DNA from: Candidatus Iainarchaeum sp.
GTDB lineage: Archaea > Iainarchaeota > Iainarchaeia > JAADDC01
Assembly: GCA_030445695.1 (NCBI GenBank)
Contig: JASUTF010000022.1
Location: forward strand, 1-7,940
Length of the DNA stretch: 7,940 bases
Reading direction: 5' to 3'
Position numbers and translations under genes: made by a program
In this document: piece by piece, positions 1,304 through 3,223 of the stretch
How the letters are laid out: each line of letters opens with the position of its first letter
Position numbering within the stretch: the first letter of the stretch is position 1
Notes under the pieces: generated by a model
The model's input: only the letters and a program-made list of their open reading frames with translations
The model's database searches: none
What the model was told of the DNA's origin: nothing

Positions 1304-1495
1304 ATGAAGGTTCACGTGAATAAGGACACGTGCATCGGCTGTGGCGTCTGCGTCGCTCTTGCACCAAAGTACTTCAAGCTCGACACGGACGGCAAGTCCG
1401 TCGCTATAAAGGAAGAGGTTGACGCGGGCGACGAGGAAACCGTGAAGAACGCAGCCATGTCCTGCCCGACGCAGTCCATCATCATCGAGGAGTGA
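1304..1495 (+). CDS. Single-cluster [4Fe-4S] ferredoxin
   Basis: This 63-residue cytoplasmic electron carrier has the pattern C10-x2-C13-x2-C16 (CIGCGVC) and a fourth ligand at C54 followed by proline (SCPTQSI), which together hold one [4Fe-4S] cluster. The second position is Cys; the aspartate found in some hyperthermophile ferredoxins is absent. No further cysteines are present, so a second cluster or a disulfide is excluded. The family length is about 60-65 residues. The last 14 nt overlap the 3' end of the convergent YggU-type gene. Its partner is unknown; an inference is that it could feed electrons to Fe-S enzymes encoded nearby such as Dph2 or NcsA/TtuA, but small ferredoxins are general carriers. 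Confidence 0.93.
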   Translation: MKVHVNKDTCIGCGVCVALAPKYFKLDTDGKSVAIKEEVDAGDEETVKNAAMSCPTQSIIIEE

Positions 1496-1703
1496 TTGCC
1501 ACCACTTTTTCCCTGCTTTTCCCCCCTCTAACAATGCGTATCGCATTCTTCTTTACTCCGAAGTGCTTTGCCAGAATCTCAATCAGGCGTTTGTTGGCCT
1601 TTCCCTCCACCGCTGGCGCATCCACCCATATCTTCAGCCCGTTTTCCGTTTCTTCGACCTTCGCCCTCTTTGCGTTTGGCACGACGCGGACAAGGAGTTG
1701 CAT
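1482..1703 (-). CDS. DUF167 / YggU family protein (UPF0235)
   Basis: This 73-residue protein belongs to the small YggU/DUF167 family, whose function is not established. Diagnostic features are the VRVVPNAKRAKVE start, the central DAPAVEGKANKRLIEILAKHFGV (residues 28-50), and IRIVRGGKSREKVV near the end. The length suits the family. The ATG at 1703 has no clear Shine-Dalgarno site, but TTTAAATA on the minus strand at 1723-1730 lies 20-27 nt upstream, so a leaderless transcript is likely. The gene ends inside the ferredoxin gene on the other strand (14-nt tail-to-tail overlap) and starts head to head with an sRNA gene. Confidence 0.9.
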   Translation of the reverse strand: MQLLVRVVPNAKRAKVEETENGLKIWVDAPAVEGKANKRLIEILAKHFGVKKNAIRIVRGGKSREKVVAITPR

Positions 1704-1730
1704 ATTATAACCCTTTTGTACGTATTTAAA
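1703..1730. promoter_or_regulatory. Divergent promoter between the YggU gene and C/D sRNA A
   Basis: TTTAAATA on the minus strand (1723-1730) is a strong TATA element for the YggU gene. TATTATAA on the plus strand (1703-1710) lies about 25 nt before the predicted 5' end of sRNA A. The two boxes sit back to back, each touching the start of the other transcript, as at 815-845. Confidence 0.5.
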
Positions 1731-1786
1731 CGGGATGATGATTCTTCACCTATCTGAGTCGTGATGAGCTCTGGGGTAACTGACCT
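1731..1786 (+). ncRNA. C/D box guide sRNA A
   Basis: Box C ATGATGA 1735-1741, a 12-nt D' guide 1742-1753, box D' CTGA 1754-1757, a 3-nt spacer, box C' GTGATGA 1761-1767, a 12-nt D guide 1768-1779, box D CTGA 1780-1783. All four boxes are perfect, and the 12-nt inter-box spacing is that of archaeal sRNAs directing 2'-O-methylation with fibrillarin, Nop5 and L7Ae. The closing stem is short (GGG before C, CC after D). By the rule of the fifth nucleotide upstream of D or D', each guide picks one target base; I did not assign an rRNA or tRNA target. Confidence 0.85.
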
Positions 1787-1790
1787 TTAA
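1786..1790 (+). promoter_or_regulatory. Possible TATA box of C/D sRNA B
   Basis: TTTAA at 1786-1790 lies about 25 nt before the G-rich 5' stem of sRNA B. It is a short, weak match and rests mainly on its distance. Confidence 0.3.
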
Positions 1791-1811
1791 TGTTCTTCTT
1801 CCTCCTTTTAC

Positions 1812-1871
1812 GGGGGATGATGAATCGGACGTTCCACGGAACGGATGACGATTCTGTTACCCCCTGACCCC
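1812..1871 (+). ncRNA. C/D box guide sRNA B (degenerate internal boxes)
   Basis: Box C ATGATGA 1817-1823 and box D CTGA 1864-1867 are perfect, and GGGG 1813-1816 pairs with CCCC 1868-1871 to close the molecule. The internal motifs each differ by one base: D' CGGA at 1837-1840 and C' ATGACGA at 1845-1851, separated by 4 nt. The guides are 13 nt (1824-1836) and 12 nt (1852-1863). The D guide keeps the standard spacing and is probably functional; the D' guide is less certain. It lies 28 nt downstream of sRNA A on the same strand. No target was assigned. Confidence 0.75.
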
Positions 1872-1880
1872 TTGTTCTCT

Positions 1881-1938
1881 CCGGTCAGCCGCGCCCTACA
1901 TCATCATATTTCAGACAAGGCCGAATTCATCATCCCGT
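1881..1938 (-). ncRNA. C/D box guide sRNA C
   Basis: Read on the minus strand: box C ATGATGA 1933-1927, a 12-nt D' guide 1926-1915, D' CTGA 1914-1911, a 3-nt spacer, C' ATGATGA 1907-1901, a 12-nt D guide 1900-1889, box D CTGA 1888-1885. All boxes are perfect. The closing stem is weak (CGGG against CCGG with a mismatch). It lies 10 nt downstream of sRNA D on the same strand and tail to tail with sRNA B. No clear T-rich terminator follows. No target was assigned. Confidence 0.85.
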
Positions 1939-1948
1939 AATGTTTTCT

Positions 1949-2010
1949 GGGCGGTCAGTCGTAAAAAATCATCACAACCTTCAGCATTGGACTCAATCAT
2001 CATTCCGCCC
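1949..2010 (-). ncRNA. C/D box guide sRNA D
   Basis: Read on the minus strand: GGGCGG 2010-2005 and CCGCCC 1954-1949 form a perfect 6-bp closing stem. Inside are box C ATGATGA 2003-1997, a 12-nt D' guide 1996-1985, D' CTGA 1984-1981, a 5-nt spacer, C' GTGATGA 1975-1969, a 10-nt D guide 1968-1959 with a run of six T, and D CTGA 1958-1955. The gene starts 11 nt after the 3' end of tRNA-Ser, too close for a promoter of its own outside the tRNA. Co-transcription with the tRNA is therefore the simplest reading. No target was assigned. Confidence 0.87.
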
Positions 2011-2021
2011 TTGCTTTTGAG

Positions 2022-2107
2022 CGCCGGGGAGGGGATTTGAACCCCTGCGGGCCAAACGGCCCACCGGATCTCAAGTCCGGCCCCTTAGACCACTCGGGCA
2101 CCCCGGC
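2022..2107 (-). tRNA. tRNA-Ser (anticodon UGA)
   Basis: The 7-bp acceptor stem GCCGGGG/CCCCGGC is perfect. The D stem CCC/GGG, the anticodon stem CCGGA/TCCGG and the T arm AGGGG-TTCAAAT-CCCCT are intact. The anticodon loop CTTGAGA gives UGA, reading UCA. The long variable arm (GGGCC-GTTT-GGCCC) and discriminator G73 support serine and argue against leucine. CCA is not encoded, and no intron is present. The gene begins 12 nt after the stop codon of the 367-aa protein gene and is followed 11 nt later by sRNA D. Confidence 0.96.
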
Positions 2108-2119
2108 GTGTGCAGATGA

Positions 2120-3223
2120 TTATATGCCCAGTCGCTTTTTTAGGTGGTTTCGCCCGCTGGGTGGCAGGTAGCGTGCTATGTTTTCGAATAACTTTGCCGC
2201 TGCCCTTTCAGGGCCGTGCTCTCCAATGTACCTGTCAAAGTTGAGGATCTCCTGTTTTATCTTATCGGCATCTTTGCTTTTGAACCCCCTGTTGAGTGCC
2301 TTCTTGGCCTTGGGCAGTGTTTCTGCGAGGGTTGCGTATGCGTAGAGTGCGTTTATGTCGTCCCTTTCTATGGCCCTGTTTGCGTTCCGTATGAACTCCT
2401 CCTGTATATCCTCTGGCAGGTGCCTTGCGTTCTTGACTACTGTCTGCCACAGGTTGTACTTTGTTGTGGTTAGGAACTTTTTTCCGTAAAACACGAACCT
2501 GTTCTTCTTCATGTGCGTGTCGATGTCCTTCTGAATCCATTTCATTTCGTTTGGCAGCCCCACCGCAAGAATGAGTGGTTTAACATCTACGATGAACCCC
2601 TTGCTCTTCAGGAAGTTGAAGAATTCAGCCCAAACCCTTGCCTTGTGCTCTATCCTGCGGTGGTTGGACGTGAGCACTTCCCCTATCCTGAATGTTATCT
2701 GGTTGTCCAGCACGTTTATGCCCAGAAGGTCGAAGTCCGTAAGCGTCCTTTTCTCTTCCACGCCGTTCTCTCCGTTCTTCTCAATCATAACGCCCACGTC
2801 GTCGAATATGTGGTGGTTCTCGTTCAGGAGGGCTGCCGCAAGTGCGTATTTGCCGTATAATTCCTTTGGTGGCCCGTGGTGAAGCGTTACGCCCTTTATT
2901 TTTGGGAGTCGCTTCGTGTCGCTCTTTTTGTAGTTGAGCGGGAAGTGCAGGAGATATTTCTCTTTTTCGTCCCCTATGGCGAGGTTTACGGCACCGTGTT
3001 CCGCCTTCTCTTCAAAGTATGTGCGAAGTTCCCGCATGAAGTTCAGCACCCTAGGGAACTCCCACACGTCCCTGAGTTCCATGTGCACGTCTATGTAAGG
3101 GCCATATTTCGTCGATTTTTTGGGTCTGACTGCCTTTATTTTCACGCCGTGACGCTTCGCAATGTCGCGTATGACCATTTCGTGTTCCAGCATCTTCCTT
3201 CTCTGCCCTATGCCTCTCCCCAT
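2120..3223 (-). CDS. Unrecognised 367-aa protein, last protein gene of the operon
   Basis: I do not recognise this family. There is no signal peptide or membrane segment, and the protein is basic and probably cytoplasmic. Residues 60-75 form an amphipathic helix. Residues 161-210 run TDFDLLGINV, a strand ending in IGEVLTS (E182), then a long helix, which resembles the core layout of PD-(D/E)XK nucleases; the expected E-x-K lysine is missing, so this is only a weak hint. Residues 262-367 look wholly helical and end in a basic tail, KKRLGI. The start is uncertain. ATG 3223 overlaps the dph2 end by 16 nt and abuts GGAGGT with no spacing, while ATG 3193 (M11) would leave a 14-nt gap after dph2. 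It follows dph2, suggesting a linked translation-related role, but no function is assigned. Confidence 0.8.
   Translation of the reverse strand: MGRGIGQRRKMLEHEMVIRDIAKRHGVKIKAVRPKKSTKYGPYIDVHMELRDVWEFPRVLNFMRELRTYFEEKAEHGAVNLAIGDEKEKYLLHFPLNYKKSDTKRLPKIKGVTLHHGPPKELYGKYALAAALLNENHHIFDDVGVMIEKNGENGVEEKRTLTDFDLLGINVLDNQITFRIGEVLTSNHRRIEHKARVWAEFFNFLKSKGFIVDVKPLILAVGLPNEMKWIQKDIDTHMKKNRFVFYGKKFLTTTKYNLWQTVVKNARHLPEDIQEEFIRNANRAIERDDINALYAYATLAETLPKAKKALNRGFKSKDADKIKQEILNFDRYIGEHGPERAAAKLFENIARYLPPSGRNHLKKRLGI
2135..2142 (-). promoter_or_regulatory. Possible TATA box of tRNA-Ser
   Basis: On the minus strand CTAAAAAAG lies 28-35 nt before the tRNA 5' end, inside the last codons of the preceding protein gene. 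It would allow a leader of about 6 nt. The alternative is processing of the tRNA from the operon mRNA. Confidence 0.3.

Follow-up and report, generated by a model that had tools for sequence, protein, structure and literature searches.

The window, a stretch of 7,940 nt, is contig C10 of a MAG of 664,191 bases in 29 contigs (88.6% complete). The host is a tiny uncultured archaeon belonging to DPANN. ThiS-like, archease, ferredoxin and DUF167 genes, tRNA-Ser, a gene for a 367-aa protein, and diphthamide synthesis and ZIP transporter genes surround a gap of 318 nt (1704-2021), which is bounded by the DUF167 gene and tRNA-Ser(UGA). The borders of the gap given in an earlier reading made from the letters of this DNA (the sequence-only reading) agree with those found here, where DUF167 adjoins it at 1703 and tRNA-Ser(TGA) at 2021. 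The 367-aa protein adjoining tRNA-Ser (2120-3223) is without a Pfam match and, among 55 relatives, occurs only in the source genome and two congeners. The features of the gap and its flanks are as follows.

1482-1703, minus strand: DUF167 (YggU family) gene, left flank and syntenic marker (PF02594, 84 bits).
1703-1710, plus strand: TATTATAA, probable TATA box of sRNA A, 32 nt upstream of the C box.
1731-1786, plus strand: sRNA A; array 1735-1783, ATGATGA-12-CTGA-3-GTGATGA-12-CTGA (C 1735-1741, D' 1754-1757, C' 1761-1767, D 1780-1783); D' guide TTCTTCACCTAT, 1742-1753; D guide GCTCTGGGGTAA, 1768-1779.
1812-1871, plus strand: sRNA B; array 1817-1867, ATGATGA-13-CGGA-4-ATGACGA-12-CTGA (C 1817-1823, D' CGGA 1837-1840, C' ATGACGA 1845-1851, D 1864-1867); D' guide ATCGGACGTTCCA, 1824-1836; D guide TTCTGTTACCCC, 1852-1863.
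1881-1938, minus strand: sRNA C; array 1885-1933, ATGATGA-12-CTGA-3-ATGATGA-12-CTGA (C 1927-1933, D' 1911-1914, C' 1901-1907, D 1885-1888); D' guide ATTCGGCCTTGT, 1915-1926; D guide TGTAGGGCGCGG, 1889-1900.
1949-2010, minus strand: sRNA D; array 1955-2003, ATGATGA-12-CTGA-5-GTGATGA-10-CTGA (C 1997-2003, D' 1981-1984, C' 1969-1975, D 1955-1958); D' guide TTGAGTCCAATG, 1985-1996; D guide TTTTTTACGA, 1959-1968.
2021-2107, minus strand: tRNA-Ser(UGA), right flank (ARAGORN, anticodon TGA, and Rfam).

The sequence-only reading had placed four C-D'-C'-D arrays, two per strand, in 1704-2021, with guides of 12, 12, 13, 12, 12, 12, 12 and 10 nt. Re-derivation by script returned the same coordinates and exactly these lengths, which fit the roughly 10-13 nt of guides in this class; the intervals reported there are the box arrays plus short terminal stems, which in sRNA D read GGGCGG/CCGCCC. 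All four sRNAs carry C (RUGAUGA) and D (CUGA) boxes near both ends as well as internal D' and C' boxes. The boxes are perfect in A, C and D, but B is not a perfect array, having the variant pair D' CGGA and C' ATGACGA. As CGGA recurs together with ATGAAGA in two other sRNAs of the source genome, the pair in B seems to be a variant in which the two boxes match, rather than a sign of decay.

The Rfam family RF00095 (snoPyro_CD) matched A with 49.3 bits, above the gathering threshold of 45; C (41.8 bits) and D (22.0 bits) scored below it, and B was absent from the matches. RF00095 therefore does not hold all four sRNAs as one family, only A reaching at least 45 bits. C also matched sR60 (RF01309) with 45.3 bits, just under the gathering threshold of 50. 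The covariance-model search proposed earlier was thus borne out for A, but B, C and D were below threshold or unlisted, and the statement that an ordinary annotation would leave the stretch blank needs amending, since Rfam at gathering thresholds would find one sRNA of the four. The genes for fibrillarin (PF01269, 267.9 bits) and Nop5 (PF01798, 249.9 bits) are adjacent on contig C23, and L7Ae (PF01248) has two matches in the source MAG. Identification of the four window genes as archaeal box C/D methylation-guide sRNAs is supported by the Rfam match, the box anatomy, these fibrillarin, Nop5 and L7Ae genes and, as described below, conservation in congeners and complementarity to rRNA at N+5.

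TIGR-Tas systems combine a Nop-domain protein with box C/D-like repeats, and the window resembles their arrays in outline, with tandem C/D-like modules and dual guides. A TIGR-Tas-type array for RNA-guided DNA targeting is nevertheless extremely improbable: the guides match rRNA, the genes lie on both strands, and the only Nop-domain protein of the MAG is encoded directly beside fibrillarin on C23. A Nop-domain Tas protein neighbouring the arrays was sought, and this reading was rejected on finding the sole Nop-domain match at that place.

A box-motif scan of the whole 664-kb MAG, with three order-2 Markov randomised genomes as control, gave 22 matches at a score of at least 8 (overlapping second registers of the same genes included) and 14 at 10 or above, and none in the randomised genomes; it yielded about 16 C/D genes. 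Profile R1, built from 25 arrays of which 16 are from the source MAG, recovered 16 genes there at E≤0.001, having been trained largely on these, and addition of the gene at C1:25633 brings the number to about 17. The box motifs are short, and one might regard the arrays as chance occurrences of a low-complexity TGATGA/CTGA motif, not genes. This explanation, to which we give practically no credence, is refuted by the randomisation, in which no such score arose, by synteny with guides under different constraint, and by the match of the guides to rRNA.

For 17 uniformly scattered genes the expectation of a quadruple is about 3.5e-7; four genes fell within 250 nt in 0 of 20,000 simulations, and the other C/D genes of the source MAG lie at least 1.3 kb from their nearest neighbours on the same contig. 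Among the 55 relatives, R1 has 7-16 matches per genome in the own family and 0-3 in other families of the class, a contrast that may partly reflect the training of R1 on this genus. Since the other neighbouring C/D genes of the family form pairs only (G001 C7, G005 C31), no gap seen holds more than the four found here, and four C/D genes in 318 nt are extreme for the genus. The earlier remark that dense clustering is unusual holds in this form only, because a significant fraction of archaeal C/D genes has been reported in clusters of two or three (PMC7994747).

In RNAs of this kind, 2'-O-methylation would be directed to the rRNA nucleotide paired to guide base five, counting upstream from D or D' (N+5). 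The guides were paired with the own 16S rRNA, the own tRNAs and the 23S rRNA of congener G001; a search with RF02540 found no 23S rRNA in the source MAG, and the 23S targets consequently rest on G001 numbering. The p values refer to shuffled guides, with pairing of the N+5 base required, and the sites were aligned to E. coli rRNA for numbering. Complementarity at N+5 is strong for three guides. The D' guide of sRNA D pairs with 16S 928-939 (11 Watson-Crick pairs, N+5 = G932, E. coli 962; p=0.002, the best of the eight), the D guide of C with 16S 1196-1207 (11 Watson-Crick pairs, N+5 = G1200, E. coli ~1231; p=0.008), and the D guide of B with 23S 2519-2530 (11 Watson-Crick pairs and one GU, N+5 = U2523, E. 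coli 2449; p=0.012). It is moderate for the D guide of A at 23S 2511-2522 (N+5 = C2515, E. coli 2441; p=0.09) and for the D' guide of C at 16S 867-878 (N+5 = G871, E. coli ~902; p=0.13), the G001 version of which forms 10 contiguous Watson-Crick pairs at the 16S site. The remaining guides are weak or without a match: the D' guide of A at 16S G164 (p=0.12), and the D' guide of B (p=0.32) and the D guide of D (p=0.26), neither of which has a convincing target in 16S rRNA, congener 23S rRNA or the own tRNAs.

Every sRNA of the window thus has at least one guide with a candidate target. Of the eight guides, several match rRNA at N+5, but two or three are without a convincing target. The single-guide p values are modest because the guides are short; combined, the eight give p=3e-5. 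Among the 32 guides examined in the source genome, 15 have p<0.05 as against 1.6 expected (binomial 8e-12); the C/D class, taken together, therefore looks functional, even if an individual guide may be borderline. Complements of the D' guides of A and B over 12 nt occur genome-wide only at their own loci, and the D guide of D has a 10-nt match in two unrelated places besides its own locus. Between the guides of A and B there is partial complementarity, which simply follows from the inverted repeat (TTACCCC/GGGGGTAA) that their 23S targets make up. The 16S sites at ~1231 and 962 we take to lie near helices 30/31. Literature searches found nothing direct on sR60 targets or on archaeal methylation at U2449.

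The two guides of another sRNA of the source genome (L048:6409-6462) match tRNA-Leu(taa) 56-67 and tRNA-Leu(caa) 31-42, and this RNA is likely, from its complementarity, to be a tRNA-methylating guide. The sRNA at L052:10202-10249 matches tRNA-Ser and tRNA-Leu likewise.

Orthologues occur at the same locus in three congeners, G001, G002 and G003, in each of which DUF167 adjoins sRNAs A and B. From DUF167(-), G003 continues with A(+), B(+), a stray half of B, C(+) and tRNA-Ser(-); in G002, DUF167, A and B (in one direction) are followed by a composite sRNA, further DNA and tRNA-Ser. G001 has A and B next to DUF167 and, at a distance of 18 kb, a second B with a three-guide array adjoining tRNA-Ser and the 23S gene. 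Named by the E. coli positions of their sites, the guides of the G002 composite are 962 at D' and 1231 at D. The G001 array (L095:10535-10615, just upstream of the 23S gene) has guides 962, 1231 and 902 in succession and can be parsed into two sRNAs that overlap, one of the two being a circular permutation of C. All of G001-G003 conserve the D guide of A, while its D' guide differs in every species; the D guide of B hardly varies among five copies, orthologous or paralogous. The D' guide of D together with its box was found in G000, G001 and G002 only. A homologue of B was sought outside the genus; a single exact 14-mer turned up, in G055 (L097), but no C/D array surrounds it and it was rejected.

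Folded alone, sRNA B (1812-1871) forms one long hairpin in which its D guide would be buried, a point against the guide reading, and the fold is similar in G003 and G001. Together with the D' guide ATCGGACGTTCCA, which is nearly identical in three species and has no rRNA or tRNA target, this might be read as half a guide, the D guide working on 23S rRNA and the D' side serving as a conserved hairpin for stability, chaperoning or regulation of guide exposure. We regard this as unlikely. Fold z scores of -2.4 (window), -3.6 (G003), -4.4 and -1.1 (G001) and -1.4 (G002) speak for the hairpin, as do two double changes, one compensatory (A-U to G-C), the other C-G to G-C. However, 86 of 500 shuffles reach this number of double changes, the second G001 copy of B breaks hairpin pairs, lone folding is not special to B (z of -3.3 for the L052 sRNA), and the D' guide might have its target in the own 23S rRNA, which is absent from the MAG. 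A B-specific hairpin was accordingly set aside, the folds being suggestive and the covariation weak.

The 16S guides are paired differently from species to species: 902 with 1231 in C of the window and in G003, 962 with 1231 in G002, and 962, 1231 and 902 in the one permuted array of G001. We suggest tentatively that the locus may be a hot spot of recombination where C-guide-D modules are swapped as cassettes. If so, the double guide around helices 30/31 has been split onto two sRNAs, which would offer a test of the idea of an rRNA-folding chaperone that needs both guides in one molecule; the natural comparison is between the 16S guide pair on one sRNA (G001/G002) and on two (window). In G009, of another genus of the family, a 1231-like guide is paired with a guide resembling the 23S ~2021 guide (L118:842-891), whose counterpart in the source genome is at L092:4938; judged from the sequences, this pairing would be more module exchange.

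It is conceivable, if rather doubtful, that the cluster is real and partly decayed, with A, B and C working and D either keeping only its D' guide or becoming a pseudogene from the split double guide. The second guide of D, TTTTTTACGA, has only 10 nt with a run of six T, and no target was found for it; in G001 and G002 a single sRNA combines the D' guide of D with the 1231 guide. Between B and C of G003 (L096 (C98):1574-1587) the D-half of B occurs a second time as a stray copy, CTGTTACCCCCTGA, likely a duplication remnant, which would suggest that debris accumulates at the locus. Against decay, D has four perfect boxes, a long terminal stem and the D' guide with the lowest p value of the eight guides.

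In most scattered sRNAs of the source genome a TATA-like element lies about 32 nt before the C box. The element of A, TATTATAA, equals those of the best scattered sRNA genes, with a score reached by 0.2% of random genomic sites. That of B is weaker (2.5% of random sites), and those of C and D are the weakest of the four (6.6% and 17%), although some scattered sRNAs also have poor TATA scores. D starts at ~2010, about 10 nt downstream of the tRNA-Ser 3' end (2021) and on the same strand, and is followed by C. This is the arrangement of tRNA-C/D dicistrons, an sRNA directly downstream of a tRNA, and neither D nor C has a strong TATA element. From their layout, tRNA-Ser, D and C probably form a tRNA-sRNA precursor; the contrast between the strong element of A and the weak ones of D and C fits transcription of A from its own promoter and of D and C from the tRNA-Ser precursor. 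The congener sRNAs oppose the direction of tRNA-Ser, and only C and D of the window run with it. Hence the inversion of C and D and the tRNA-Ser-D-C tandem are peculiar to the source species among the four, and the tandem is probably recent.

From the observed sequence anatomy, conservation, complementarity and machinery genes we infer how the RNAs may be transcribed and processed, how they may direct methylation, and in what order the locus may have changed. In each sRNA the C/D and C'/D' motifs would be bound by L7Ae, which would be joined by Nop5 and fibrillarin. A and B, on the plus strand, would guide methylation of the neighbouring 23S domain V peptidyl-transferase nucleotides C2515 and U2523 (G001 numbering); C and D, on the minus strand, would address 16S G1200, G871 and G932, of which G1200 and G932 would be near neighbours at helices 30/31. 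Its own TATA box probably drives transcription of A; B is probably transcribed from the weaker one or by read-through, and D and C probably from the tRNA-Ser precursor, where the RNase Z cut at the tRNA 3' end may help to release D. The cluster itself may have arisen as guide modules were duplicated, inverted and paired anew. This proposal as a whole, covering C/D sRNA function, targets, transcription modes and cluster origin, is held with high confidence.

With the Pyrococcus families RF00095 and RF01309 (sR60) the window sRNAs share the C-D'-C'-D order, guides of ~12 nt and a short terminal stem, and the D' guide of C resembles that of the sR60 consensus. The guides otherwise differ, the host is DPANN and not Thermococcales, and A alone passes the gathering threshold. 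The cited C/D guide sets are from cultured archaea, among DPANN only N. equitans, and a computed set for another DPANN lineage is given here.

Some archaeal C/D genes directly follow a tRNA, as with tRNA-Ser in I. hospitalis (PMC7994747), and N. equitans has tRNA-C/D dicistrons such as tRNA-Val/sRNA8 (PMC3491384). In these tandems the C/D sRNA lies downstream of the tRNA on the same strand, like D of the window; here, by contrast, two sRNAs, D and then C, follow the tRNA, with a convergent pair opposite. Rearrangement of archaeal guide modules has also been published (PMC4644070). N. equitans sR15 (PMC4644070, Table 3, Fig. 5) addresses, as a double guide, two strands that lie far apart around 16S helix 30, and the G001/G002 composite, with the 1231 guide at D and 962 at D', is much like it. 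Its D target G1217/1218 is probably equivalent to E. coli ~1231, as estimated from numbering offsets; its D' site is G930, whereas the window and congener guide has the E. coli 962 site (helix 31), and in the window the two guides are on the adjacent sRNAs C and D. Duplication, circular permutation and guide-module exchange, as at the window locus, are known from M. kandleri sR39/88/119 and sR56/103 (PMC4644070). Those rearrangements lie within one genome, and earlier work inferred them mostly from one-genome paralogues; here guide shuffling and strand inversion are seen between close relatives, at one syntenic locus in four congeners. Clusters, tRNA-C/D tandems and module rearrangement being known, what is added is the evolutionary comparison.
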